Below are positions 2 through 25,772 of a DNA stretch of 28,120 bases, one piece after another (position 1 is the first letter of the stretch; each line of letters begins with the position of its first letter). The position numbers were made by a program, and so were the translations under genes. The notes below the pieces were generated by a model. The model did no database searches, was not told where the DNA came from, and saw only the letters and a program-made list of their open reading frames with translations. Source of the DNA: a virus. The stretch is from the IMG/VR virus record IMGVR_UViG_3300027810_000046, positions 1 to 28,120 of that record. The stretch is one strand, 5' to 3'.

Positions 2-730
2 GTCCTCGAGGAGATGGCACAGTCATCACAGCAGCTGCAAACGTGGGCCGCCGGTTTTGTCCTCGAGCGTGAGACACCCATGTTCAAGGTAGACGACGAC
101 GTTGTTATGATCGCCACCGGCAACCGTGCCGAGGATCGCGCTGGTGCTAAGCCCCTACTAGGCCACCTCAACGACCGTATGTACCACTTCGACGTCGACA
201 CTTCACTCGACGACTGGTGTGGCTGGGCGATGGAGAACGGCGTTGACCCACTGGGCGTTGCGTTCTTGCGCCTACGTCCTAACCTGCTCAACGATTACGA
301 CTCATCGCGGCGCAGCAACCCAACCCAACGTTCGTGGACTAAGCTGTTCACAGAAGTCCCTAACGACTTACCCACTAACATGTATATGACTGCCGCCGAG
401 GGTAAGGTTGGTGAGGGCGCAGCCGCCGAGTGGGTTTCAGCCCGTGACATGATGAACAAGATGCCTAGCATCGACAGCATCCGCCTACATCCAGACAACG
501 CAGAAGTTCCATCCGAGCCAGCAGTTCGGTTCGCTGTGTCCACTGCGCTGTCCATGACGGCAACACCCGACTGTTTTGGCCGTGACATGCAGTATATCAG
601 CCGTCTGCCCAAAGAGTTCCAGATGGTCTACGTCACCGACGCCCTGCGTCTCAACCCACCGCTGCAACAGACTAAGGACTTCATCAGCTGGGCCATCGCC
701 AACAAAGACATCTTTATGGGAGGAAACTGA
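2..730 (+). CDS. MoxR-type AAA+ ATPase, C-terminal part (5' end outside window)
   Basis: The reading frame is open from base 2, before the first ATG at base 14, so this is the 3' part of a longer gene. The visible protein starts at a Walker B-like segment (VLEEMAQ), followed by LQTWAAGFVLERE, the sensor-1 sequence VVMIATGNR, and then a conserved run of an L-N-R-type motif (LNDRMYHFDVD), DDWCGWA, and a C-terminal lid region ending in a TQRSW motif. This order is typical of MoxR-family AAA+ ATPases that remodel partners through a VWA-domain protein. The Walker A motif should lie upstream of the window. It starts an operon that also encodes a VWA/metallopeptidase protein (base 2235), which fits a MoxR/VWA pair. 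Family-level confidence is good; the substrate is unknown. Confidence 0.8.
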   Translation, partial: VLEEMAQSSQQLQTWAAGFVLERETPMFKVDDDVVMIATGNRAEDRAGAKPLLGHLNDRMYHFDVDTSLDDWCGWAMENGVDPLGVAFLRLRPNLLNDYDSSRRSNPTQRSWTKLFTEVPNDLPTNMYMTAAEGKVGEGAAAEWVSARDMMNKMPSIDSIRLHPDNAEVPSEPAVRFAVSTALSMTATPDCFGRDMQYISRLPKEFQMVYVTDALRLNPPLQQTKDFISWAIANKDIFMGGN

Positions 731-966
731 TGCCAAACCCGTACCGCTACCACCACCAACGCGGACTGGAGCTTGTCATGGCCGAGCAAATGTCTTGTCT
801 CTACAAACACCTAAGCGATTTGGAGATGATCCTCAAAGACCGACCCTTTGAGCTTGGCTTAACGCGTTACGCAGAGTTTTTCGACGACATACTGTCGGAA
901 GCACAAACAATCCACGACAACGGCGCAGCGTATATCGCAGCCGAAAGAATCAAAGGGAGGAACTAG
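730..966 (+). CDS. Small hypothetical protein in MoxR/VWA operon
   Basis: A 78-residue protein I do not recognise. Its ATG overlaps the last base of the upstream stop codon (TGATG), and GGAGG lies 5 bases upstream, so translation is probably coupled to the AAA+ gene. The sequence is largely helical, with no cysteine pairs, no signal peptide and no membrane segment. It is followed two bases later by the next gene. Its fixed place between the AAA+ ATPase and the DUF3150-like gene suggests an accessory role in the same cassette, but that is inference from position only. Confidence 0.7.
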   Translation: MPNPYRYHHQRGLELVMAEQMSCLYKHLSDLEMILKDRPFELGLTRYAEFFDDILSEAQTIHDNGAAYIAAERIKGRN

Positions 967-967
967 C

Positions 968-2005
968 ATGAATATGCAAGCACAACTACTCGCAGCTATG
1001 GAAGCCGCACAACACGCTATTCCAGCAGCTCCAGCCGTCGACGACGACTCATCGGCACAACCTGTTTACACGTCACCAGATACGTTCAAGTCTATTGCAG
1101 AAGTTGCAGCGCCTGTCGTTCAAGAAGTCAAGCGTGAGTTCGTTAAGGTTAAGAACCTCGACGAGAAAGCCGTGCTCGTTCAAGTCAAGCGCCGCATGTA
1201 CTCACCTTACAAACTCGACGAGGCCGAGAGCAAAGCATACGGCGCAGGTAACGTGAACAAGCACTTGTTCCAAGGCACGACCAACCGCGTCAAAGTCGCC
1301 ATCAGTGCGTACACCGCAGTGTATAGTTTCGCCAAGGACAACACAGTCCCGTGGACAACTGGCGTCGAACTGCTCAACATCGACCATTACATGGACTTCA
1401 CGTCGGGTCTGCGTCAACTGATCGACAAGGCCAACGACGCGGTCGACGATCTAGTAGCCAACTGGGACCACGAAGTGCGCATCGACTTGCAGCGTTTGCA
1501 GGACATCGCCTACGCCAAAGGTAAGCCCGACCTTGCCGACCCTAACGACTACCCAGAAGCCGACGAGGTTGCTTCGCGGTTCGGTATCGAGGTGCGTTAC
1601 ATCCCCGTGCCTACCACTGGTGACTTCCGTGTGGGTATCAGCGACGACGACAAGGCATCGCTCCAGCAGCAGCTCGACGACGCGACAGCGAACGCAAGCA
1701 GACATGTCCTTACTCAGATGCTTGAGCCTATGCAGCGCGCTGCGTCCAAGCTAGCTGTGCCCATCGGCAACGACGGTAGTATCTTCCGCGACAGTCTAGT
1801 CGACAACCTCGTCGACGTCTCGTCACGTATGGCCAAGATCAACATCAGCGACGATCCGTTCGTCACCGAGCGCATCAAAGACTTGCAGTCACTCATTGGC
1901 ACCTACGCCAACAACAAGGACATGCTGCGTAACAACCAGTCCGTCCGCCAGAAAGCTGCATCCCAGATCGACGCACTATGCGGTCAGATGGCGGGGTTGG
2001 TATGA
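968..2005 (+). CDS. Conserved phage MoxR-partner protein (DUF3150-like)
   Basis: A 345-residue protein with GGGAGG 8 bases upstream of the start. After a short alanine/proline-rich N-terminus (about residues 1-45) comes a mainly helical body. It includes a VPWTTGVELL segment, a helical stretch around DDLVANWDHEVRIDLQRL, a DYPEADEVASRFGIEVRYIPVP segment, a GDFRVGI strand and a long C-terminal helical region. From memory this layout matches a protein of unknown function commonly encoded between CobS/MoxR-like ATPases and VWA proteins in phages and plasmids (DUF3150-like). The biochemical role is not established; an adaptor or substrate of the MoxR machine is plausible. A coding-region stretch at 1062-1084 resembles an intergenic motif seen elsewhere in the window (see findings). 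Confidence 0.75.
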   Translation: MNMQAQLLAAMEAAQHAIPAAPAVDDDSSAQPVYTSPDTFKSIAEVAAPVVQEVKREFVKVKNLDEKAVLVQVKRRMYSPYKLDEAESKAYGAGNVNKHLFQGTTNRVKVAISAYTAVYSFAKDNTVPWTTGVELLNIDHYMDFTSGLRQLIDKANDAVDDLVANWDHEVRIDLQRLQDIAYAKGKPDLADPNDYPEADEVASRFGIEVRYIPVPTTGDFRVGISDDDKASLQQQLDDATANASRHVLTQMLEPMQRAASKLAVPIGNDGSIFRDSLVDNLVDVSSRMAKINISDDPFVTERIKDLQSLIGTYANNKDMLRNNQSVRQKAASQIDALCGQMAGLV

Positions 2006-2238
2006 GACAACCCAAAGAATACTACTGCGTCGGCTGCGGCAGCACTGACATAATTATCGAAGCGCACTGTTACTGGGACAACGTCACGCAAGGTTATGCG
2101 GACTTTCAAATTTCGGATGAAGGCCGCGACTGGTGCACAGAGTGCGAGGACCAGAGCACCGGAGCTTTTCGCGCAATCACAGACATCAAGACCCTCGCCC
2201 AGATCGCCATCGTCAAATCAGAAAGGAAAACAGCATGA
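2002..2238 (+). CDS. Small zinc-ribbon protein
   Basis: A 78-residue protein starting at the ATG of an ATGA overlap with the upstream stop. A longer in-frame start at 1978 would lie inside the upstream gene and is less likely. It has two CxxC pairs, YYCVGCGS near the N-terminus and WCTECED near residue 50, spaced as in a zinc ribbon. The region between them contains a short beta-like segment (IIIEAHCYWDN). Such small ribbons mediate protein or nucleic-acid contacts; nothing here shows which. It sits between the DUF3150-like gene and the VWA/metallopeptidase gene with overlaps on both sides, so it is probably co-translated and part of the same cassette. Confidence 0.75.
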   Translation: MRQPKEYYCVGCGSTDIIIEAHCYWDNVTQGYADFQISDEGRDWCTECEDQSTGAFRAITDIKTLAQIAIVKSERKTA

Positions 2239-3383
2239 ACGCCCCACTACAGCACACTGCGCTCGACGAGTTGCAACGCAAGGTAGGCAAGGCCAAGTCA
2301 CTACTTATTCTTGACCACCCCTTCTTTGGCACCGCTTGTTCCAAGCGCCCGATCATCTACACCGACACAGTTCCGACAGCAGCTATGTCAGGTACAGGCC
2401 AGATGTATATGAACCCCGACTGGTGTTCTGCGTTAACTGTACGACAGCTTATGTTCTTACTGGCACACGAGGCACTGCACTACATGCTGTCTCATTCGCT
2501 GCGTCTTGGCCATCGCGACGCCAAAGCGTGGAACATCGCTTGCGACAAGGTTATCAACGACACGCTGATCGACGCCAATGTCGGTGACTTCATCGACGGC
2601 GGTGTGACACTCGACGGCGCACGTAACATGGCATCCGAAGAACTGTACGACGAGGCAGACGACGGCGACGGCGACGGTCCGGGCGGCATAGGCAACGACG
2701 TAGGCCCACCAGTCGACGACAACGGCAGCGCGCTAGACGACTCACAGATCAGCCAGCTAGAGGCACAAGCCAAGATCGACGCCATCCAATGCGCCAAGGC
2801 AGCCAAAGCCGTCGGTAAGCTCCCTGGAAGCATCGAGCGTCTCGTCGATCAACTTGTTAACGTGACAACACCTTGGCACAGTATCCTCGAGCGCTTCATG
2901 CAGTCTAAGATCAAAGACGGCTACTCTTGGAACAGACCCAACCGTCGCTTCATCGCCCGAGGTATATACATCCCCGGCACCGACTACACACCCAACATGG
3001 GACCACTTGTCATCGCTGTCGACACGTCTGGCTCGCTAGACGACGACGACATCGCCATGTTCAACGGGCACATCAACCGCATACTCGACACGTGCAGCCC
3101 AGAGATTGTCCACGTGGTTTACTGTAACACACACGTCCAAGGTGTTGACGAGTACACACCTGACGACTTTCCTGTTTACATCCAAGCCAAGGGCGGCGGC
3201 GGTACATCGTTCAAGCCAGTGTTCGACTGGGTCGACGACAACAACATCGACCCCGAGTGCGTAGTCTACCTGACCGACGGCTACGGCGACCAATCATCCT
3301 TCACCACCACACACGAAACCGTGTGGCTCACCACAGGCACCACGTCATTCGACTGGGGCACCGTCATTAAGTTCGAGGAGTAA
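2235..3383 (+). CDS. Metallopeptidase-like plus VWA-domain protein (DUF2201 type)
   Basis: I take the ATG at 2235 (ATGA overlap with the upstream stop, with GGAAA just upstream), giving 382 residues. The N-terminal domain has a zincin motif HEALH (H78, E79, H82) followed by a WNIACDKVIND segment whose D104 is at the place of the third metal ligand in this family. A D/G-rich acidic linker follows (about residues 140-175). The C-terminal domain is VWA-like, with a MIDAS-type DTSGS (D263, S265, S267) and a later LTDGYGD. This is the architecture of Pfam putative metallopeptidase/VWA-like proteins (DUF2201) that pair with MoxR ATPases. All three metal ligands of the zincin part appear present, so it may be catalytically active rather than only structural. 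Substrate unknown. Confidence 0.88.
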   Translation: MNAPLQHTALDELQRKVGKAKSLLILDHPFFGTACSKRPIIYTDTVPTAAMSGTGQMYMNPDWCSALTVRQLMFLLAHEALHYMLSHSLRLGHRDAKAWNIACDKVINDTLIDANVGDFIDGGVTLDGARNMASEELYDEADDGDGDGPGGIGNDVGPPVDDNGSALDDSQISQLEAQAKIDAIQCAKAAKAVGKLPGSIERLVDQLVNVTTPWHSILERFMQSKIKDGYSWNRPNRRFIARGIYIPGTDYTPNMGPLVIAVDTSGSLDDDDIAMFNGHINRILDTCSPEIVHVVYCNTHVQGVDEYTPDDFPVYIQAKGGGGTSFKPVFDWVDDNNIDPECVVYLTDGYGDQSSFTTTHETVWLTTGTTSFDWGTVIKFEE

Positions 3384-3945: not shown

Positions 3946-4620
3946 ATGGCATATGTACGCAAGACAGAAACACTGATCGACGACGTCGTTAGACGCATCC
4001 GTAATATGGCCGCGAAAGCACTTGGCGTTTACGAAAGTAAGAGCATCGAGATCGACACCGCCGAGTACGCTGCGGCCTGTGAAGCTATACACACAGCGGC
4101 CTACCGTGACGCACCGCAGCTTCGTGGCAACCTGCCAGAGTCTTGGCTGTTCAAGACCGAACGCATCAACCTGCGAATCAAAGACCACTCCGGCAACACC
4201 ATAGCTCGGGCAGGTCTCGACGCCCCTGAGCACCGGAAGTTCGAGGTGCCTGCGCACAAAGCAAAAGCAAACAGCTGGAGTGTTGACGTCGACGTGTACG
4301 CCGACGAGTGCACGGGGGCTCTCGCGATGTGGGTTCAGGCGCACACCACAAAGACAGAGCAGCGCAGCACCATCGAGACGCAGTACCGAGAAGTCGAGCG
4401 GCAGGTCATCGGGTTCTTGCGCACCCACGCATCGCTCAACGCTGCCATTAAAGAGATGCCTGAGATCGAGCTGTATGTGCCTGACCAGTACCTCAGAAAG
4501 ATGCATGAGGCCGTCGCACCACGCGTCAAAAAAGAAGAGCAGCAGTCTGCCATCACCGAGCTGGGTATCGACCGTAACGCCCTTGCCGCCGTCGCAATCG
4601 CACACCGAGTAATGTCTTAA
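3946..4620 (+). CDS. Hypothetical protein, possibly nucleotide-modification associated
   Basis: A 224-residue protein with AGGGAA upstream of the ATG. The N-terminal third is helical (VVRRIRNMAAKALGV). A beta-rich middle follows (ERINLRIKDHSGNTIARAG and WSVDVDVYADE), then a long helix and an element reading SLNAAIKEMPEIELYVPDQYL near the C-terminus. The layout (N-terminal helix, a P-x-x-W segment, beta strands, helical hairpin, then SLN..K..P) loosely recalls phage proteins annotated as nucleotide-modification associated (Nmad5-like). I see no catalytic residues that would support this, so I leave it unassigned. It is co-directional and 11 bases after its upstream neighbour. Confidence 0.65.
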   Translation: MAYVRKTETLIDDVVRRIRNMAAKALGVYESKSIEIDTAEYAAACEAIHTAAYRDAPQLRGNLPESWLFKTERINLRIKDHSGNTIARAGLDAPEHRKFEVPAHKAKANSWSVDVDVYADECTGALAMWVQAHTTKTEQRSTIETQYREVERQVIGFLRTHASLNAAIKEMPEIELYVPDQYLRKMHEAVAPRVKKEEQQSAITELGIDRNALAAVAIAHRVMS

Positions 4621-5781: not shown

Positions 5782-5963
5782 TGTATAACGTGCTGAGAAG
5801 CTACACAGTCTGCGAGTGCCACGAAGTAGACGCTACTGACGAGGATGCCGCAATTCAATTAGTTGAAGACGGGCTTAATGACTACTTCGTTGATAGCTAC
5901 GACGGTGATTACGTCCGCGACGACAACGGTAAAATTATCTACACCGTGGAGGATGTGGAATGA
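5778..5963 (+). CDS. Small acidic protein upstream of DNA polymerase
   Basis: A 61-residue acidic protein preceded by AGGAGG seven bases before ATG 5778 (a second ATG follows directly). It reads YNVLRSYTVCECHEVDATDE, then DAAIQLVEDGLNDYFVDSYD: a beta strand, an (A/T)xDEDAA helix and further strands, as in small phage proteins with a beta-alpha-beta layout. It ends in an ATGA overlap with the polymerase gene, so it is probably translationally coupled to it. I do not recognise a function. Confidence 0.65.
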   Translation: MMYNVLRSYTVCECHEVDATDEDAAIQLVEDGLNDYFVDSYDGDYVRDDNGKIIYTVEDVE

Positions 5964-7879
5964 AGATATGCACCGTCGACTTAGAGACGTACTGGTCAGT
6001 CACACACTCGCTGAGCAAAATGTCCCCCATCGCGTACTGTATGCACCCCGACACGGAGATCATCAGCTGCGCGTTCAAGTTCGATGACGAACCCACCGAG
6101 GTTGTCTTTGGCGAGGCGAACGTGATTGCGTACGCTAGCAAGGTCGACTGGTCACAATACTGGGTCGTCGGGCATAACCTTTCGGGCTTCGACTCTATGA
6201 TCCTGTCGTGGCGTATGGACATCAAACCTAAACTCTGGGGCTGCACCCTCGCTATGGCGCGGCCTATCCACGCGAAGGACGTTGGCCTATCACTCGCCAA
6301 ACTCGTGGCGCACTACAAGCTGGGGTACAAAGACCAGTCGGCGCTGATCGCCACCAAGGGTAAACACCTGTGTGATTTTACTGAGCAAGAGATTGCTGAC
6401 ATGGGTAGATACAACGTCGCCGACGTAGACCAGTGCTACGAGTTACTGCGACGACTCATCAAGCAGACCCGCCGCGAAGAGGTCAAGCTGATCGACATGA
6501 CAATCCGTATGCTGGTGGAGCCACAGTTCGAATCCAACACTGCGTTACTCCAGCGCACCTTAATTGAAGAAAGTGTGCGTAAGAAAGCTATGCTGGTGGA
6601 AGCGTCTAAGATTTTAGACACCTACGACCCCCTAGAAAGTGCTAACGTGAATGCAGATGCCGCGTTGAAATTACTGTCGTCGGCTGCTAAGTTTGCGGTG
6701 TTCCTGCAATCCCTTGGAGTACCTGTTCCCACCAAGGTTTCACCCCGTACCGGTAAAGAAATTCCGGCGCTGGCCAAAACTGATGAGGACTTCATTGCGT
6801 TGCAGGAACACGACAACCCCATCGTCGCCAACGCTGCTGCGGCCCGACTAGAGGCGAAGTCGACTATCTTGCAGACACGCATCCAAGCGTTCCTCGACGC
6901 AGCCGCCGCACACCCGCAGTCCAAACTACCGATCCCACTCAAATACTACGGGGCCGACACCACTGGCAGATGGAGTGGCTGGGGTTATAACCCACAGAAT
7001 TTACCACGCATCAACCCGTACAACCCTCGCCCGTCGGACGCACTGCGTAAGTCGCTCGTCGCTCCACCGGGCCACAAAGTCGTCGTCGCCGACCTGTCCG
7101 GGATCGAGCTACGCGTCAACCACTTCTTATGGCAAGTCCCGTCTAGTATGGATATGTTCAAGGCTGACCCTGAGAAAGCTGATCTGTATAAGGACTTCGC
7201 CAGTAAACTTTACGACATCCCGTTCGATGAAGTAACCAAGGTCCAACGCCAAGTCGGTAAGGTTGCGCACCTTGGGTTAGGTTTTGGGGCTGGATGGAAG
7301 ACCTTTATGACTGTTGCCAAGCTCATGGGCGGCGTCGACATCACCGAGGACGAGAGCCGAGACATCGTCAACCGCTGGCGCGATACATACAGCGAGATCA
7401 CTTCGGGCTGGCGGACGTGCCACGGCGCGCTGCCAACGATTATGCAGGGTGCAACAGGCAAAGCCGTCGACCCGTGGGGCATGGTCTACCCTGTCCCCGA
7501 AGGTCTCAAGACACCCAAGGGAATCATCCGCTACCCAGACCTACGCACCGAGCGTAACGAAGACGACAATCGCATGGAGTTTATCTACGGCAACGGGCGC
7601 AACAAGGCGCGAATCTATGCGGGTAAGATCGACGAGAATATCGTCCAACACCTCGCCCGGTGTGTGATCGCTGACAACGCGTTAACAGTACAAAAGGTTA
7701 CTGGTTTAGACCCGGCTTTGATGGTTCACGATGAATTAGTCTATGTGGTTCCCGAAGATGAGGCCCAACCGCTACTAGATGTAGTGCAAAAGGTAATGCG
7801 CACACCGCCACTCTGGTGGCCAGAGCTAGTGACATGGAGCGAAGGCGACATTGCGGATACATATGGTGATGCTAAATAA
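5960..7879 (+). CDS. polA-like: Family A DNA polymerase with 3'-5' exonuclease domain
   Basis: The 639-residue enzyme replicates phage DNA. Residues 1-170 are a DnaQ-like 3'-5' exonuclease: D7/E9 in VDLETYW, GHNLSGFDSMIL, and YNVADVDQCYELL as the final motif. The polymerase domain shows motif A ADLSGIELR (D378, E383), the O-helix motif RQVGKVAHLGLGFGAG (R430, K434) and motif C MVHDELVYVVPED (H590, D591). There is no 5'-3' exonuclease domain, as usual in phages. The residue four after K434 is Leu438, equivalent to E. coli Phe762 and T7 Tyr526. Published marine-phage surveys associate Leu at this position with temperate or slower-replicating phages. It starts within the stop of the upstream acidic-protein gene. 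Catalytic residues all appear intact. Confidence 0.96.
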   Translation: MKICTVDLETYWSVTHSLSKMSPIAYCMHPDTEIISCAFKFDDEPTEVVFGEANVIAYASKVDWSQYWVVGHNLSGFDSMILSWRMDIKPKLWGCTLAMARPIHAKDVGLSLAKLVAHYKLGYKDQSALIATKGKHLCDFTEQEIADMGRYNVADVDQCYELLRRLIKQTRREEVKLIDMTIRMLVEPQFESNTALLQRTLIEESVRKKAMLVEASKILDTYDPLESANVNADAALKLLSSAAKFAVFLQSLGVPVPTKVSPRTGKEIPALAKTDEDFIALQEHDNPIVANAAAARLEAKSTILQTRIQAFLDAAAAHPQSKLPIPLKYYGADTTGRWSGWGYNPQNLPRINPYNPRPSDALRKSLVAPPGHKVVVADLSGIELRVNHFLWQVPSSMDMFKADPEKADLYKDFASKLYDIPFDEVTKVQRQVGKVAHLGLGFGAGWKTFMTVAKLMGGVDITEDESRDIVNRWRDTYSEITSGWRTCHGALPTIMQGATGKAVDPWGMVYPVPEGLKTPKGIIRYPDLRTERNEDDNRMEFIYGNGRNKARIYAGKIDENIVQHLARCVIADNALTVQKVTGLDPALMVHDELVYVVPEDEAQPLLDVVQKVMRTPPLWWPELVTWSEGDIADTYGDAK

Positions 7880-17551: not shown

Positions 17552-17746
17552 ATGCCCGCAGCAGCAACTACCAAAGCGGCAATTAAACGCGCCATCGAAG
17601 CCGCCCAAGACGCAGGTTTAGCTATCTGCGCCGTGTCCGTGGCCAAAGACGGCAGCATCCGCGTTGAGACAAATCAGAAAAACCTAGACACCAACTCCGT
17701 TCTGGATCAAGGTCCAAAGCCCAAACAGTGGGCTGCGCGGAGGTAA
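17552..17746 (+). CDS. Small conserved protein upstream of integrase
   Basis: A 64-residue protein with AGGGAGG seven bases before ATG 17552. It begins PAAATTKAAIKRAIEAAQDA, then GLAICAVSVAKDGSIRVETN, and ends with a basic PKQWAARR. The helix followed by a beta hairpin with an SxxxDGSIRV motif is, from memory, a small family often encoded immediately 5' of tyrosine integrases in proteobacterial phages. No function has been assigned as far as I know. The stop lies two bases before the integrase start, so the pair is probably co-translated. Confidence 0.65.
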   Translation: MPAAATTKAAIKRAIEAAQDAGLAICAVSVAKDGSIRVETNQKNLDTNSVLDQGPKPKQWAARR

Positions 17747-17748
17747 AA

Positions 17749-18831
17749 GTGACCGTAAAACTACCCGGCTTGTGGGCGGAGAAACTGCCCAGCGGCACCG
17801 TGCGCTGTCGGGTCCGCAAAGAAGGTGACAAGCGGGTTGTAACGCGCATACCCGTGGGGCCCGACGATCCGGACTTCCTCCACCACTATTACGCCGCACG
17901 TGAAGGTCGTGTGTGGGACGCTCCACCAGAAAACACTGAGGTGCAGCAGAGCCTAGACTGGCTTACGGCACGGTACTTGAAGTTCTTAGAGGACATGGTC
18001 GCTGCAAACCAGATGTCTGCCGCCACGCTGAAACAGCGACGTAGTATCCTGACAAGACTTTGTGACTTCACAGACCCCAGTGGGGGACGCTACGGGTCTT
18101 TTGACATGAACGCACCCACCGCAGCGTTCATCGCGGTACGAGACGCATGGGCCAGCAAGCCCGGAGCCGCAGACAACCTCATCAAAACAATACGAGCGGT
18201 TTACTCGTGGGCGATGGAGCGTGACGAAATCGGTTATAACCCCGCCGTGGGCATCGCTCCTATCAACAAAAACCCAAAGGGCGGAGCGACGGCATGGACG
18301 GCTGCTGACCTACGCGCGTTTAGGGCTGCACACCCCAAAGGAACCACAGCGCATCTCTGGCTAACGATCCAAGCCTTTACTGCTTGCCGCATCGGGGACG
18401 CCCTGTGGATAGGACGACAGCAGGAGAAAACCATAGGCGGTCAGCCGTGGCTTGAGTTCCAGCCGCGCAAAAAGGGTTCGGCGTTTGTATCCATTCCTAT
18501 GTTACCGCCACTGGTGGAGGCCACTAGAGCCTCGAAGGTCGTCGGTCCGAGCTACATCCTGAACGATAAAGGCACTCCGTTCTCATCAGTTGAGGCGCTG
18601 CGTGTCCGCGTCCAAAGATGGTGCGTGGCCGCGGGCCTAAAGAACCGTTCGTCCCACGGAGTTCGCAAAGCTATGGCGGAGTTGATGGCAGAAGCTGGAA
18701 GCTCTCAGCACCAGATCATGGCGGTCATGGCCCACACCCAAGCGCGCACGTCTGAGGTCTACACCAAGGGGGTCCAGCGCCGCGGATTGGCCGCCGAAGG
18801 ACTGCACTCTCTGGCGGCTCTGGATTGGTAG
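17749..18831 (+). CDS. int: Tyrosine-family site-specific integrase
   Basis: I take GTG 17749 because GGAGG lies 7 bases upstream; an in-frame GTG at 17728 overlaps the previous gene. The 360-residue protein has an N-terminal SAM-like core-binding region (about residues 65-150) and a catalytic domain. Catalytic residues are R214 (TACRIGDALW), the RKKG lysine region, H303 and R306 (SSHGVRKAM), H329 (VMAHTQARTSEVYT) and nucleophile Y338. It inserts the phage genome into the host chromosome at attP/attB. It is the last gene of the plus-strand run, followed by a non-coding stretch with four 10-bp repeats that are candidate integrase sites. All catalytic positions are present, so it looks active. 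Confidence 0.95.
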   Translation: MTVKLPGLWAEKLPSGTVRCRVRKEGDKRVVTRIPVGPDDPDFLHHYYAAREGRVWDAPPENTEVQQSLDWLTARYLKFLEDMVAANQMSAATLKQRRSILTRLCDFTDPSGGRYGSFDMNAPTAAFIAVRDAWASKPGAADNLIKTIRAVYSWAMERDEIGYNPAVGIAPINKNPKGGATAWTAADLRAFRAAHPKGTTAHLWLTIQAFTACRIGDALWIGRQQEKTIGGQPWLEFQPRKKGSAFVSIPMLPPLVEATRASKVVGPSYILNDKGTPFSSVEALRVRVQRWCVAAGLKNRSSHGVRKAMAELMAEAGSSQHQIMAVMAHTQARTSEVYTKGVQRRGLAAEGLHSLAALDW

Positions 18832-19136: not shown

Positions 19137-22100
19137 TTAATCGAATCTTCGCTGCGCTCTCTGCTCTCTACGATCCTGACTACGCGGCGCGCGAATTAGA
19201 TCGCCGACCGACTGACGCCGCATCTCGCGGCCGCTGCCAAAGAAGGGACTGATACGCTCTTTCTGGTCCTGCAAATCGCGCCACTCGTCGCGCAGCTCAG
19301 TCATACGACCTCTGGCACCGTCGTCTTTCGCCCGGATATACTCACGACGAATACGAGAAGACTCGTTGCTTACATACTCGGAGAGCTCAAACTGCTGACC
19401 ACGTGTCCACTTGAACTTTTGTACATCTGTGGAGGGGATACCAAGAGCGTTGAGGAGCAGGCTCTGCATGTCAAAAGCCCGTGGGTCTACCAGCACATCG
19501 CCGCTCTTAGCGGAAAAACCTTCTGTGCCAAGTCGATAGGACTCGACCAAAGTGCGGATGCCTTTTGGCACCATGTACTCGATGCCTTTTAGTGCGTCGC
19601 CCTGCTTAAAATACTCGGCGGAACGCCCAAAGTTGAGGGCAGTAGTGCCCGACGGTCCGGCCAATGCGTTAAAGAAGACGTCCTTTACGCCATCTTCGCT
19701 AGCTTCGAAGTCAATGTACGGGAATGGGTGGAATATTTTACCCTGCGAGAGCTTGGTGGACATGTCGATACCAACCGCAGAGAATACGCCTCGGCTAAGA
19801 ACGTCTGCAAGGCGTTCGCTCTCTACCTTCTCGCGTATCCAACGCTCGAGTTCTTGCGGCTCTTCTTCGCCCTCTATCCAACCCAACGCGTACGGAGCTA
19901 GTGTAGTCACCAGTGGGATACCTGTCGCTCCAGCGAAGATACCCGCGTGAGTTAGGGTATATCCAAGAACGCGTTTGCCCATGGCCTTCTCTTCAGCACT
20001 AATAGTCTTATCCACGAAGGCTTGGTTGAAGGCGTTCCCGTAAGCCCAGCCCATCATCAGCTGATATTTGCGGTACTGAGTAGTCATCTTGGGCAGGAAC
20101 TTCACCACGTACGGCGCATCGAACCGGGCAAAGTTACCCTGTGTGTCTTCGACAACCATCGTGGCGTACTCGTCCGGCGTCATCTTGAGGGTTTTCATCG
20201 TCGCGGGGTTGGCCAGTGCCATGTCGTAAGCAGCTACCGCCGCGGCGATACGGTTGTGAGCTTCCACAAAACGCGCCACTTGGTACAGCTTGTGCACGAT
20301 TTTACCAAGTGCGTCAGTCGCCCGGTTGATCGACTCGTAGCCCGAGTTGAAGCGGTCAAACTCAGAGAGGTCTTCTTCCATACCCACGTCTAATAGTTGG
20401 CGCAGCTGCAAGTCTTCTAGGAGTTTGCGGTACTTCGGTGGGGCTTTGTTGATGTCGATTTCGGCTTCAAAGTTTTTACCCATCTTGGCCGCTTTAACTG
20501 ATACTTTGTACCCACGGGTGAGCGCACCCCATGCGCCGCTATAGTTCTTAAAGTCACCTGCGAGGCGAGGAACAGTAACGATAGCTGGCTGCGTGGCGTT
20601 GGTAACGTGGTAGCCCACACTGGTTGTAAGCATGTAGACTGAGTTCATCGCAGCGAGGCGATCTTGGATTGGGGTCTCTTTACCCACCAGTGTGTCTCTG
20701 TAGTGCTTCGCCACCATGTTGTAGACGCCGCGCAAGTTCTCTTCATCTCTACCGGCTTCTACGTTAGCCTCAGCGAAGGCTGTATTAATCTCAGCACCGT
20801 GTTCCATGTTAGCCACAAGGCCAGCTTCGGCACGGGCGTGAGACAAGAATGAGCGGATCATGTTCTTTTCGTAGCCCGCGCGGTTCATACGGCGAGCGCC
20901 AGACTGACGAGCACTGCGCTCGTCTAGTGACTGGAAGTACATTTTCTTTACCATTTCGGCGAACGCAGCTTTAGCGTTAGAGTCGATACCCGATTTGTCG
21001 TCTGCTCGCAGCTGCCCAAGTATCTTATCAAAGGCTTCAGGGTTAGACATTCTGTCGTTGTCCATGTCAGGGGCTCTCGGCGACGCCGTGGCGGTAGCGA
21101 ACTTATCCTTGTTCGCGTCTCGGAACTGTTTAGCCGCACCCATAGTGTCGAAGAAGCTGATAACGTAGTTCGCTTCATCAGACTTGAGGTCGTTTACTTT
21201 TTTCTTGGTTTCCGCTGTATTGTTTTCGCGCATCTCAGCTTCTGCATCTAAGAGGGCTTGGGATTTTAGCTGCCCGACGAAATTACCAAAACGCTTCAGT
21301 GGCGCGTACGGCCCTTCAAGCGCAGCATCGGTAAAGAACTTACCCTCTACGCCAAGGTTCTTGGCGATCTCCTGCTTGCGTAAGCGCATTGTCTCACCGT
21401 GGGCGAAGATGTCTTTCACCAGCTGCTGTTCTTTCTGAGCCAGTCGGTCGAACTTACGCTTCATAACCGGGTCGACCTTGACTGTTCTACCTTCGATCTC
21501 TGGGTCGTAACCCCACTTTTGGTAAAAGGTTGAACTACCGATGAAGTCGTTGACAACTTCCAGACGCTCCGGTTTCATGTCTCGGGCCTGAACAGCCACG
21601 CTTTCAACGCCGCGGCGAATATCGTTTCGTGTCTTCTCTGCTTCCAAGCTGGCATTATACCAGCGGCCAGCCGACGGCATCGTCTCTTTGTTCTCTCGAA
21701 TAAACTGGTGCAAGAACTTGGTGGAATCCACAGCGTTGCGCGCAATAAATGACGCATCATCAAAAAACTTCGTAGCCCCTTTACCTAAGTTTTGCTTGAC
21801 GTAAGCTCTCGCAGCTTCGGTTTTCGTCGTTGCGTCGCGGCCTACACCATAAGACGGCGACTGGAATGGAGCAGTGGTTGTAGTTGGGTCTAGGCTGCCT
21901 TCCATGAGCTCGAAGCGCGCTGCGCCGTAAGCCATGTCGACAAGGTCTTGTGCCACTAGAGTGTCTACGTTGCGAAGGCCGAGCGCCTCGAAGGCGGCTT
22001 TGAACGCGTCATAGATGCGCTGCACAAAGTTACCAACCGCGTCGCCCGCAGTGGGGTCCACCCCTGCCATTGTGGCTTCTTCGAGGAAGTAGGCGATAGC

Positions 22101-25100
22101 CTCTGAAACAACCACGCCGTCAGATACGCCACCGCGCATTGCAGCAAGGTCCATACGACGCAGGGTGCGCAGGGCGAGTTTACTCTCAAGAGAACCGTCG
22201 TTAGCTCCCGCCCAATCAGCAATCTGCGAAGCGAGCTTTGTGCGGGAGGCTTCGTCTAGGACGTTGTCGATACCCACGTGGCCGCCAACTTCGTGCATAA
22301 ACGCAGCGCGTTCGCCACCGGCGGGGATACGATCTAGGATAAAGTGCGCGTGAGGCACTCCGTTCTCGTCTTCCTGAACCCAGCCGTAAGGCTGTACTTT
22401 TGCGATTTCGGCCACGTCGGCATATGGAACATCGCCACTCTCCACCGCAGCGAGCGCGTCGGCTTCGTTATCGAAGACGTGAATACGGACGTTCTGCGTA
22501 TCACCTGTCAACTCGTTAACAGATTGTTCAAATGCTTCGCGGGATGCCGTAGCAGTCGCGTTGTCCCTCACGCCAAAGCGAGGATTGCTCGTCTTGGCTT
22601 TCTTGGGGTCAATCTTCTTCCGCTTCCTAACTTCTACTACCGGCGCAGTCTTAACCCCGCCGACTACTCCGGTGCTGGCTTCTTGGCTGCTGCGTCCGCT
22701 CTCGCCAGTATCCGCAGTTCCGACTTGTTCAGTTGGATTCCCGCTTTCTGCGCTCGTCGCATCCCCGGTACTCGGTCCTGCGTCGTCTGCAATTTGGGTT
22801 GCGGTGCTTTCGTTGGTTCGTCCTGCATTGGTATCCTCCAGTGTGGGGCCAGCGTTATTCTGGTCGTATTTGTTTTCGATGTCACGCAGGTCTTGCGCGA
22901 GTTGGGCGTCGTCAATAGAGCCCTCTTTATGTTCTTCGACTGCGGAAATCCACTCGAGTAAATCTGCTTTACCCAGTTGGTCTACGTTCGGACCTCCAAC
23001 AGAGACGCCGTTTTTCCATGCGGAAATAGCATCACGCCCGTGGGTTTTAACCATCCCTACAAGCTGCTTGTTACGCTCTTTGTCCGCAATTTCTTGACGC
23101 TTGTTAGCGTATTGGTCCGCCTCTTGTGAGCGCGCTTCCATGTACACAACGTCTGCATCGTCCATACCATCACGAGCGCCTTGGTTAGCGGACGCCACGG
23201 TGCCCATGCTGTCCCCCAGCTCGGCTAGGTCAACTTCGTTTGTTGGCGCATTGATGTCGAACTCTGCACCGGGAGTGCTTTTGTTCTTTGTCTCAGCAAG
23301 GCGCTGCTTAATCTGCTCTTGGCTAAGCCCGTAAGCCTTTGCCAGTTTAGGGCGCAAACGTACAAGCGCGGTCTGTGCAGCTTGTCGAGATTTTAGCCCG
23401 CCGCGTTCCGCAATAAGTGTTGGGTTTAGTGTGCCATCCGACTGGATGACTGCGTCCTGCTCGTTGTTGGCAAACGCCTGCTGCATCGTGTCGAACACTA
23501 TCTGTTCGTTCTTAGACAGCTTAACTTCACTAGGCAGAGGCTGCGCAAACAGCGTCGCAATTTCGGTCGTCGGGTCTGTGGTTGTGGGGTCGGAGTCGGA
23601 AATCTGTTGCGCTACGTCCGCGACAGGAGCAGGTTCAATCTCTACCGCGGCGGGGGCTAAAGGTGCCTGCGCTTGCGCTACGTCCGCGACAGGAGCAGGT
23701 TTAATCTCCACCGCCGCGGGGGCTAAAGTTGCCTGCGCTTGTGCTACTTTGTCGACGTTCGACTGGAATCCTGCGTACTTCTTACCGTTTAAAAGCTCCA
23801 CGAGGGGTGGGTTGCTCTCACGCCAGTTGTCTCCCAGCTTCTCTTTAGCGTAGGTCTCAGCCTGAGCGTCCATACCGGTCAAGACTTCTGAGGCTTCCGG
23901 CGCTTTCTCGGCTACGACCGGCGGCGCTGCAACGTCTTCTTGTGCTGCCGGAGCAGCTGCTTGTTCCACCGTGGTAGGTGGCTGTTGCGCCTGCGTTTCC
24001 GTGGGTTGCGCTTCAGTGGCTTGTTCAGCCACGGCTTTACCAAGCATAGACTCAAAGCGCGACTTCTTACCGCTACCGCGGGAGTAGATACCTTTGCCGT
24101 CAGAGAGTAGCTGAGAGAGTTCAGGGTGATCCGACTCAAAGTTTTCACCAAGCTGTTCCACAGCGAGCGCACGTAGCTGCTCTTTCTTAGTCGGCGGCTT
24201 AGCGGGTTTGGCAACAGCCTCCTGCGATGCAGCATCAGTGGCGGTATCTCCTTGTGTCTCTGTGCTAAGGTCAACAGTCGGCTGGTCCCCACGCGCAACA
24301 GCTTCGGCGTGGCTATCCAAAGCGGCGACGTACTCTTCTGCGATCTGTGCTTCTGAGGCGGCTTTAGTTTCTTTTTGGTAGCCTTTAAGGAATGCTTTGG
24401 CTTCAGTTTCCACGTCGGCAGGGTCGAAGATGCCTTGTTCGTTAATGCTTGCCTCGAATGCTTGCCCCAACTCAGTCTGCGGGTTACGGATGTCGGCCTC
24501 AAGACGTTGACTTATGACCTTTAAACGGTCCGCTACAAACTTTTTACGTGGGGTAAACGTAGTTGCAGCCTCACGACGTACCCGCGCCGTAGTTTCAACT
24601 TCAGCTTGGGCTTGCACCGCCGCCGCTTTTTCGTCCGCCAGCGCACTGGCCTGCAACTCCAGTTCTTCGTTGGCTCGGATTTGCGCTTCTTGGGAGTCTA
24701 GCTCTGTGCCTTGGGGGCCACGGCGTCGTAGTCCAAGAGCCGCTACATCAACTGGTGCGCTTACACCTTCGGCGAGCGCCTCGATAATGACTTCGCCAGC
24801 TTGGATTTCTCCATCGGTGGCTAGCTGCGCCGCAGCTTCACCTCCACCGCCGCCGACAACCTGAATACCTGTTTGCTTACCCACGCCACCAAGAGTGAGA
24901 GGTGCCTTCGACGCAAGTCCTGCTGTGAGGAGGTCTACAGTACCGATGATGGCACCACGGGTAGCCCCGCGAGACGCTTGGTCTTGCATAAATTCGGTGT
25001 CGCTAACAGCAGCGAGAGCGTCCCGACTATCTAGAAGGTTGTATCCTTGCTTAGAGGCTTCCGGCACCAGCTGGCCAAAACGCTCTTGGGAGTAGCCAGA

Positions 25101-25772
25101 GCCTGCAAACGCACCAATTCCCAGCTTGGGGTTCTTTGTCACAGCAGTGGCGAGGCCCGCACCTACAATCGTCGGCAGTTGTTCGGCGGCAACTTGCGCT
25201 ATGCCAGAAGCAGTCGCGAGAGGGTTCTTGACGATAGTGCCTAGACCGTCGAGAAACCCATCAGCTTCGCTAAGCTCTTGGACCGCTTGCGCACCCGCTT
25301 GCGTCATCGGGTAGTTTTCTTGCGCGTCAACGGATCGTTGCGCCACAGCTTGAGCATTGTCGGCGGCTAAACCCCTAAGCTCTTCTGGGGTCTCCAGTGG
25401 GGCAGCCCATGAAGGGCGGTAAGTGGCGATGCGCTCGAGCAGACCCGGCTCTTCCCCAGTGCGAGTGCGCTCAGCTTCCCTCGCTTCTTGCTCCGCCCGC
25501 AGGTTAGCTAAGTTGGAAAAGTCTTCCGCCATCGAGGCGTTAGGGATGCTTCCAAGGTTAGAAAGCCCCCGCACACCCGCATTGCCCAGACCCCTCCAAA
25601 ACCCTACGTCGTCGGTGGGAGTAGGCTCGTCGGTGTTCAATGCCGCCCGAGCATTCCGGATCGCCTGCCACTGGCGCTCAGCAAGGGAGCTGGTTTTATC
25701 TTCGTCTTCGGTGCCTAAGAGGCGGGCTCTAGCCCGTTGCAGTGCTGCTTCCTGAGCTTGTGTATATGCCAT
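19137..25772 (-). CDS. Giant polyvalent/ejection protein with zincin motif and LPD38-like C-terminus
   Basis: A 2211-residue protein with AGAGG six bases before ATG 25772. The N-terminal about 350 residues contain glycine/alanine-rich hydrophobic helices. A disordered A/P/Q/E-rich region follows (about 360-1080), containing a twice-repeated small element (about 530-565 and 635-665) and a 22-residue tandem repeat. A zincin motif HEVGGH (H1160, E1161, H1164) with a later SEAIAYFLEE (E1224) fits a gluzincin-type metallopeptidase. The C-terminal half is helical, with a hydrophobic stretch near HAGIFAGATGIPLVTTLAPYALGW and an end resembling the large-polyvalent-protein domain LPD38 (FKQGDALKGIEYMVPKGIRT, then a VDPRAFDMQSLLLNALGI segment). 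Length and place recall T7 gp16-type proteins ejected with the DNA. Protease activity is inferred. Confidence 0.8.
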   Translation of the reverse strand: MAYTQAQEAALQRARARLLGTEDEDKTSSLAERQWQAIRNARAALNTDEPTPTDDVGFWRGLGNAGVRGLSNLGSIPNASMAEDFSNLANLRAEQEAREAERTRTGEEPGLLERIATYRPSWAAPLETPEELRGLAADNAQAVAQRSVDAQENYPMTQAGAQAVQELSEADGFLDGLGTIVKNPLATASGIAQVAAEQLPTIVGAGLATAVTKNPKLGIGAFAGSGYSQERFGQLVPEASKQGYNLLDSRDALAAVSDTEFMQDQASRGATRGAIIGTVDLLTAGLASKAPLTLGGVGKQTGIQVVGGGGGEAAAQLATDGEIQAGEVIIEALAEGVSAPVDVAALGLRRRGPQGTELDSQEAQIRANEELELQASALADEKAAAVQAQAEVETTARVRREAATTFTPRKKFVADRLKVISQRLEADIRNPQTELGQAFEASINEQGIFDPADVETEAKAFLKGYQKETKAASEAQIAEEYVAALDSHAEAVARGDQPTVDLSTETQGDTATDAASQEAVAKPAKPPTKKEQLRALAVEQLGENFESDHPELSQLLSDGKGIYSRGSGKKSRFESMLGKAVAEQATEAQPTETQAQQPPTTVEQAAAPAAQEDVAAPPVVAEKAPEASEVLTGMDAQAETYAKEKLGDNWRESNPPLVELLNGKKYAGFQSNVDKVAQAQATLAPAAVEIKPAPVADVAQAQAPLAPAAVEIEPAPVADVAQQISDSDPTTTDPTTEIATLFAQPLPSEVKLSKNEQIVFDTMQQAFANNEQDAVIQSDGTLNPTLIAERGGLKSRQAAQTALVRLRPKLAKAYGLSQEQIKQRLAETKNKSTPGAEFDINAPTNEVDLAELGDSMGTVASANQGARDGMDDADVVYMEARSQEADQYANKRQEIADKERNKQLVGMVKTHGRDAISAWKNGVSVGGPNVDQLGKADLLEWISAVEEHKEGSIDDAQLAQDLRDIENKYDQNNAGPTLEDTNAGRTNESTATQIADDAGPSTGDATSAESGNPTEQVGTADTGESGRSSQEASTGVVGGVKTAPVVEVRKRKKIDPKKAKTSNPRFGVRDNATATASREAFEQSVNELTGDTQNVRIHVFDNEADALAAVESGDVPYADVAEIAKVQPYGWVQEDENGVPHAHFILDRIPAGGERAAFMHEVGGHVGIDNVLDEASRTKLASQIADWAGANDGSLESKLALRTLRRMDLAAMRGGVSDGVVVSEAIAYFLEEATMAGVDPTAGDAVGNFVQRIYDAFKAAFEALGLRNVDTLVAQDLVDMAYGAARFELMEGSLDPTTTTAPFQSPSYGVGRDATTKTEAARAYVKQNLGKGATKFFDDASFIARNAVDSTKFLHQFIRENKETMPSAGRWYNASLEAEKTRNDIRRGVESVAVQARDMKPERLEVVNDFIGSSTFYQKWGYDPEIEGRTVKVDPVMKRKFDRLAQKEQQLVKDIFAHGETMRLRKQEIAKNLGVEGKFFTDAALEGPYAPLKRFGNFVGQLKSQALLDAEAEMRENNTAETKKKVNDLKSDEANYVISFFDTMGAAKQFRDANKDKFATATASPRAPDMDNDRMSNPEAFDKILGQLRADDKSGIDSNAKAAFAEMVKKMYFQSLDERSARQSGARRMNRAGYEKNMIRSFLSHARAEAGLVANMEHGAEINTAFAEANVEAGRDEENLRGVYNMVAKHYRDTLVGKETPIQDRLAAMNSVYMLTTSVGYHVTNATQPAIVTVPRLAGDFKNYSGAWGALTRGYKVSVKAAKMGKNFEAEIDINKAPPKYRKLLEDLQLRQLLDVGMEEDLSEFDRFNSGYESINRATDALGKIVHKLYQVARFVEAHNRIAAAVAAYDMALANPATMKTLKMTPDEYATMVVEDTQGNFARFDAPYVVKFLPKMTTQYRKYQLMMGWAYGNAFNQAFVDKTISAEEKAMGKRVLGYTLTHAGIFAGATGIPLVTTLAPYALGWIEGEEEPQELERWIREKVESERLADVLSRGVFSAVGIDMSTKLSQGKIFHPFPYIDFEASEDGVKDVFFNALAGPSGTTALNFGRSAEYFKQGDALKGIEYMVPKGIRTLVESYRLGTEGFSAKSGDVLVDPRAFDMQSLLLNALGIPSTDVQKFKWTRGQQFELSEYVSNESSRIRREYIRAKDDGARGRMTELRDEWRDLQDQKERISPFFGSGREMRRQSVGDLIRAPRSQDRREQRAQRRFD
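23611..23742 (-). repeat. 66-bp tandem duplication inside the 2211-residue gene
   Basis: Two adjacent 66-bp units (23611-23676 and 23677-23742) differ at only a few positions and encode a 22-residue unit (about APAAVEIEPAPVADVAQ) in the disordered P/A-rich region. The similarity at the DNA level points to a recent in-frame duplication. Confidence 0.85.

Follow-up and report, generated by a model that had tools for sequence, protein, structure and literature searches.

The question raised by the locus described here is what machine is encoded by five consecutive genes at the edge of a viral contig, and which of them form its core. The analysed stretch, hereafter the window, comprises 28,120 nucleotides, namely positions 1 to 28,120 of the IMG/VR virus record IMGVR_UViG_3300027810_000046, which is possibly a fragment. 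A preliminary description of this DNA had placed five genes at positions 2–3383, and all five reading frames were found there, arranged head to tail at the left edge of the window in the order AAA+ ATPase, 78-amino acid (aa) protein, 345-aa protein, zinc ribbon and 382-aa zincin-VWA protein. The genes, and the sites within the last of them, are as follows:

2–730, + strand: MoxR-clade AAA+ ATPase, C-terminal 242 aa (phrog_1297, 3e-43; midasin, 2e-33 by profile; homology to phage N4 gp24)
730–966, + strand: 78-aa protein without a family (in 1 of 59 loci)
968–2005, + strand: DUF3150-related third component, 345 aa (54 of 59 loci; relatives matching PF11348; fold match)
2002–2238, + strand: zinc-ribbon protein with two CxxC motifs, possibly an optional accessory (homologues in 14 of 59 loci, the window included)
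2235–3383, + strand: DUF2201 protein, zincin-like plus VWA, 382 aa, homologue of N4 gp25 (PF13203; PF09967; alignment with N4 gp25)
2466–2480, + strand: HEALH zincin motif, residues 78–82 (H78 in 37, E79 in 36 and H82 in 39 of 39 proteins)
2544–2546, + strand: D104, candidate third zinc ligand (conserved in 39 of 39; one helix further on than HEALH in the predicted model)
3021–3035, + strand: metal-ion-dependent adhesion site (MIDAS) DTSGS, residues 263–267, completed by T324 and D348 (all five positions in 39 of 39)

The explanation that we favour, and to which we give about an even chance, is that a phage MoxR–DUF3150–(zincin-VWA) module carries out ATP-driven remodelling of target proteins, possibly with cleavage, the targets being of the replication stage or of the host. 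It draws on gene content, homology, motif conservation, the constancy of a trio of core genes and the optional nature of the small genes between them.

A constant trio of ATPase, DUF3150-like and VWA genes

Related loci were collected by scans for DUF3150-like and VWA proteins across many contigs, and all locus counts refer to the 59 distinct viral loci holding both ATPase and VWA matches. A DUF3150-like gene was present in 54 of them, 52 of which showed the order ATPase–DUF3150–VWA, and the DUF3150-like protein is a constant third component in this lineage. The trio also appeared in that order on Cupriavidus and Rhodovastum plasmids and in Synechococcus phage MinM2, with identities of about 22–34% to the window proteins, other small genes or none between the core genes, and annotations consisting of family names only. 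Acidobacteria loci also carried the trio, with Gp157 or RNase H genes of phage type after it. A more distant pair was found on the IncC plasmid pAR060302, where bona fide DUF3150 and VWA genes follow ssb, bet and exonuclease genes; direct profile comparison between the window family and the IncC DUF3150 protein gave only weak similarity. Among cultured phages, the ATPase–VWA pair occurred in N4 and in Rhizobium phage RHph_TM3_14A, and the trio in MinM2 and Pag-Yong1.

The window ATPase is truncated by the contig edge, its N-terminus and Walker A motif lying off the contig. A second contig (L001), with encoded proteins 100% identical to those of the window, reaches further upstream and holds the complete 337-aa ATPase (L001:3073–4083), in which Walker A (GAPGMGKSD), Walker B (GMIVLEEM) and sensor 1 (IATGNR) motifs were recognized. 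The matching PHROGs family is labelled ‘ATPase’, and a profile of 27 relatives found midasin as the best solved relative, followed by ClpA/B, NorQ and CbbQ, with 2r44 also among the matches. To judge from these relatives, the protein is on the MoxR side of the AAA+ ATPases. Furthermore, 333 phage records matched the ATPase, including those of N4 and of many N4-like phages, and the window part is homologous to N4 gp24, with 27.0% identity over that part.

For the 345-aa protein, the label DUF3150-like given in the preliminary description is borne out through relatives and a fold match, while the window protein has no Pfam match of its own, PF11348 (DUF3150) failing to match it at an expectation value (E) ≤1. 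In particular, PF11348 matched 10 of the 44 aligned relatives (best 3.8e-8), one of them (L102) with 33.3 bits, which is over the curated cut-off of 24.9, and a plasmid protein named DUF3150 in RefSeq scored 22.1 bits against the same cut-off. The predicted model (predicted local distance difference test, pLDDT, 87.5; predicted template modelling score, pTM, 0.75) shows a core of strands and long helices with a low-confidence linker at about residues 20–60, and its Foldseek comparison with BFVD gave the phage protein A0A6J7WV52, named DUF3150, with E 8e-15 and TM scores of 0.59/0.67. Membership in DUF3150 is therefore supported by way of the family and not directly. Single-protein sequence searches against solved structures gave no matches, and neither did Foldseek of the model against solved structures at E ≤ 0.001, which does not in itself prove a new fold. 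A literature search for ‘DUF3150’ found no paper. Hidden DUF3150 homologues were considered in phage G gp569, CRP-7 gp16 and N4 gp30 and were unsupported, also by whole-genome profile search.

Zincin site and VWA domain of the DUF2201 protein

Two Pfam families were matched by the fifth gene product, PF13203 (DUF2201_N, ‘Putative metallopeptidase domain’) with 3.2e-43 and 148.8 bits against a cut-off of 23.2, and PF09967 (DUF2201 VWA-like) with 8.6e-22 and 78 bits against a cut-off of 26.4, both matches being far too strong to be due to chance. Counted from the ATG at 2235, residues H78, E79, H82, D104 and D263/S265/S267 had been assigned correctly in the preliminary description, and its reading of the locus as a remodelling machine of MoxR/VWA type is sound, the zincin site being well conserved. 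Conservation was counted in an alignment of 39 diverse DUF2201 proteins, where H82, H87, D104, N108, D263, S265, S267, T324 and D348 were invariant and where H78 and E79 of the HExxH motif, which is also present in the window protein, were nearly so. The exceptions were L102 and L110, with QN instead of HE and D instead of N100, and L116, with HL instead of HE. The putative peptidase site is strongly constrained, yet lost in places. The two QN proteins (L102:7001–8101 and L110:7001–8116) have an intact MIDAS and look like natural pseudo-peptidase versions that offer useful comparisons.

In the predicted model of the DUF2201 protein (pLDDT 83.6), HEALH and D104 lie in successive helices. The VWA fold was supported by VIA-align (6pyx_A, Z 12.1, root mean square deviation 2.9 over 131 residues); no zincin was among the VIA-align matches listed, all of which lie within residues 211–382, the VWA part. 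In a profile search of the zincin domain, the stretch of the HExxH helix weakly resembled MJ1213 and an M48 peptidase (E 0.003–0.02). The VWA protein matched 526 phage records, N4 and many N4-like phages included, and it aligned with N4 gp25, both having HExxH and MIDAS. In PHROGs (phrog_1314) and in many RefSeq phage records, N4 gp25 included, the DUF2201 family carries the label ‘HNH endonuclease’, apparently in error, since Pfam shows metallopeptidase and VWA domains. Of four papers found to mention ‘DUF2201’, none deals with its function, judged by titles and abstracts.

These sites bear on whether the module would instead mature a metal centre or cofactor, as in NorQD, CbbQO and CobST, with a phage or host metalloenzyme being activated through ATP-driven remodelling and the zincin-like domain binding metal or substrate without being a protease. 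The solved structures related to the ATPase include NorQ and CbbQ, the predicted model gave a weak Foldseek match to 9qhe_G, a chain of the NorQD complex, and pseudo-active sites do exist. On the other hand, the HExxH motif hardly varies (E79 is intact in 36 of 39 proteins), and no metalloenzyme gene was seen as a constant partner. Such a maturation role is thus regarded as quite unlikely.

Small genes between the core genes

The 78-aa protein and the ribbon had been proposed as undescribed subunits of the machine, a proposal that did not hold. The 78-aa gene was confined to this virus and the contig with identical proteins, which makes one of the 59 loci, and ribbon homologues occurred in 14; neither is a core subunit, because of these low occurrences. 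The absence of the two genes from related cassettes, which the preliminary description had itself named as speaking against its proposal, was largely what was found (58 of 59 loci lacking the former and 45 of 59 the latter). The 78-aa protein matched no family in Pfam or PHROGs searches, and its alignment with small genes occupying the same slot in other phages showed no convincing similarity. As for the ribbon, its start is most likely the ATG at 2002 rather than at 1978; the product then has 78 aa, and the start codon overlaps the stop codon of the DUF3150 gene (ATGA), an arrangement also seen in the ribbon homologues. Some relatives have a ribbon gene at the corresponding position, and it may therefore be an optional accessory; one of the 14 ribbon loci (L076) has it on the upstream side of the ATPase. 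Other relatives showed different small genes, or none, in the slots between the core genes, and the small genes are mostly optional. The gap between the DUF3150 and VWA genes was a small-gene hot spot in L013, L024, L025 and L016–L023, where the ribbon, 52–55 aa proteins and 135–174 aa proteins of a ‘MGYRSDV’ type were found.

Small genes swapped in this way would suit a module of counter-defence or host takeover, in which a host defence or replication complex is dismantled and the small genes act as target-specific adaptors. Differing small genes in the slots are what adaptors would look like, and the distribution over phages and plasmids is a mobile one. Against this, the small genes are missing from many loci, none of the five proteins matched a PADLOC defence model at E ≤ 0.01, and the core is strongly conserved across very different phages, which suggests a general and not a host-specific task. 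We consider this role at least as improbable as the maturation of a metal centre.

Genomic context of the module

Downstream of the module, the window encodes a 181-aa protein, a 224-aa protein, DNA polymerase A, an exonuclease, an endonuclease, a helicase and a primase. Two of these genes were followed across loci:

3946–4620, + strand: 224-aa gene linked to the module, a possible further partner (near the VWA gene in 29 of 43 loci)
5960–7879, + strand: family A DNA polymerase, first gene of the replication block after the module (PF00476, 2.9e-20; phrog_17, 8e-68)

A DNA polymerase was present within 6.5 kilobases (kb) after the VWA gene in 19 of the 24 loci whose sequence extends far enough. 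The cultured phage RHph_TM3_14A has the same replication gene order with the DNA polymerase downstream. The counts for the 224-aa gene refer to a distance of up to 4 kb downstream of the VWA gene. At one locus (L090) a relative of it lies between the ATPase and the VWA gene, and a DUF3150 gene was not found there. The 224-aa protein has no family of its own; the nucleotide-modification-associated domain Nmad5 was weakly matched by 3 of 11 relatives (best 7e-4).

Elsewhere in the window, an integrase-like gene (17728–18831; phrog_1, 2e-23) adjoins the replication block, a hint that the phage is, or once was, temperate, and a 2211-aa protein on the minus strand (19137–25772) matches in its C-terminal part a DarB-like antirestriction profile (phrog_10089, 6e-18). 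The helicase of the window has its nearest relatives in phages of Pseudomonas and Rhizobium that are about 61 kb in size, the fragment examined being of 28 kb.

Relation to known systems

A MoxR ATPase typically works together with a VWA protein that bears a MIDAS and captures a target peptide (PMC7159879). The window module shares with midasin, NorQ/NorD and CbbQ/CbbO the combination of a MoxR-clade ATPase with a MIDAS-bearing VWA protein. In none of these is the VWA protein known to carry an N-terminal HExxH zincin, and none is known to have a DUF3150 partner.

Closer counterparts are found in phages. The N4-like phages have gp24 and gp25 of N4 among their core genes, where they are listed as ‘Unknown’ and ‘vWFA domain’ (PMC4193335, Table 3), and PMC7650795 (Table 2) likewise counts both as core. 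The likeness lies in a homologous ATPase and a DUF2201 zincin-VWA protein encoded close together; N4 differs in that its whole genome gave no DUF3150 gene with the present profile and that the N4 stretch showed neither a ribbon nor a 78-aa gene. Moreover, Iyer et al. (2021; PMC7824862) described in jumbo phages a MoxR ATPase with a vWA co-chaperone bearing an N-terminal metallopeptidase domain, which by that description is the same architecture. In the passages of their paper that treat the pair, it is presented without a DUF3150 subunit and with a virion role, while the window module heads a replication block. The general idea is therefore not new, a MoxR and metallopeptidase-vWA pair having already been described there; what is new is the three-part, DUF3150-containing form of a known phage MoxR/zincin-VWA module. 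The homology to N4 gp24/gp25, the jumbo-phage precedent and the constancy of the DUF3150-like gene had all been left out of the preliminary description.

The role put forward in those passages for the jumbo-phage pair is virion assembly with proteolytic processing, by analogy with a two-tailed archaeal virus (PMC7824862). Applied to the window, it would make the module a MoxR-VWA chaperone and peptidase that folds, assembles and trims virion proteins, and virion-protein genes do lie near the gp24/25 homologues of the N4-like roseophage RPP1 (PMC4193335). However, plasmids whose annotation gives no sign of a virion carry the trio too, its neighbours in this clade are replication genes, and the N4 gp24/25 transcripts are middle, not late (PMC4193335). 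Virion assembly is thus held as a minority possibility, unlikely but more credible than maturation of a metal centre or counter-defence. Replication-stage or host targets seem somewhat likelier than virion parts because of the plasmid occurrence and the position before replication genes.

Proposed mechanism

In the favoured remodelling module, the MoxR ATPase would form a ring, as its family does, and would enter a complex with the other two core proteins. The DUF3150 protein would act as an adaptor that selects or docks the target, and the MIDAS of the VWA domain may grip an acidic residue of the target complex, by analogy with the MIDAS of midasin. ATP hydrolysis would then pull on the target or reshape it, and the zincin domain could cut an exposed segment, or only bind such a segment in the lines with a degraded site.

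Several observations weigh against this explanation. Whole-genome profile searches of N4, CRP-7 and phage G found no DUF3150 gene, and none was found in the stretch of RHph_TM3_14A that was examined, so DUF3150 is not needed in all versions. Likewise, cleavage cannot be universal, since the HE pair is partly lost in 3 of 39 relatives (L102, L110 and L116). In addition, the pTM of the DUF2201 model is only modest (0.55), and gene order is weak evidence on the class of target.

A stricter form of the remodelling module is an ATP-driven metalloprotease made of three subunits and carried by phages and plasmids, in which the MoxR ring and the DUF3150 adaptor feed replication-stage targets to the VWA-borne zincin; we give it rather low credence, comparable to that given to virion assembly. 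If it is true, this would be a case of direct coupling between a MoxR motor and a peptidase of its own, and the N4 core genes gp24/gp25 would be explained.

Significance

N4 gp24 and gp25 belong to the core genes shared by a large group of phages, and little or no function is listed for them (PMC4193335, PMC7650795); the naming of ‘HNH endonuclease’ in many records hides their relatives. The DUF3150 fold, with no solved counterpart found, is a structural target. Finally, the conservation map, the constant DUF3150 partner and the cultured phages carrying the pair or the trio together provide a direct route to testing the role of the machine.

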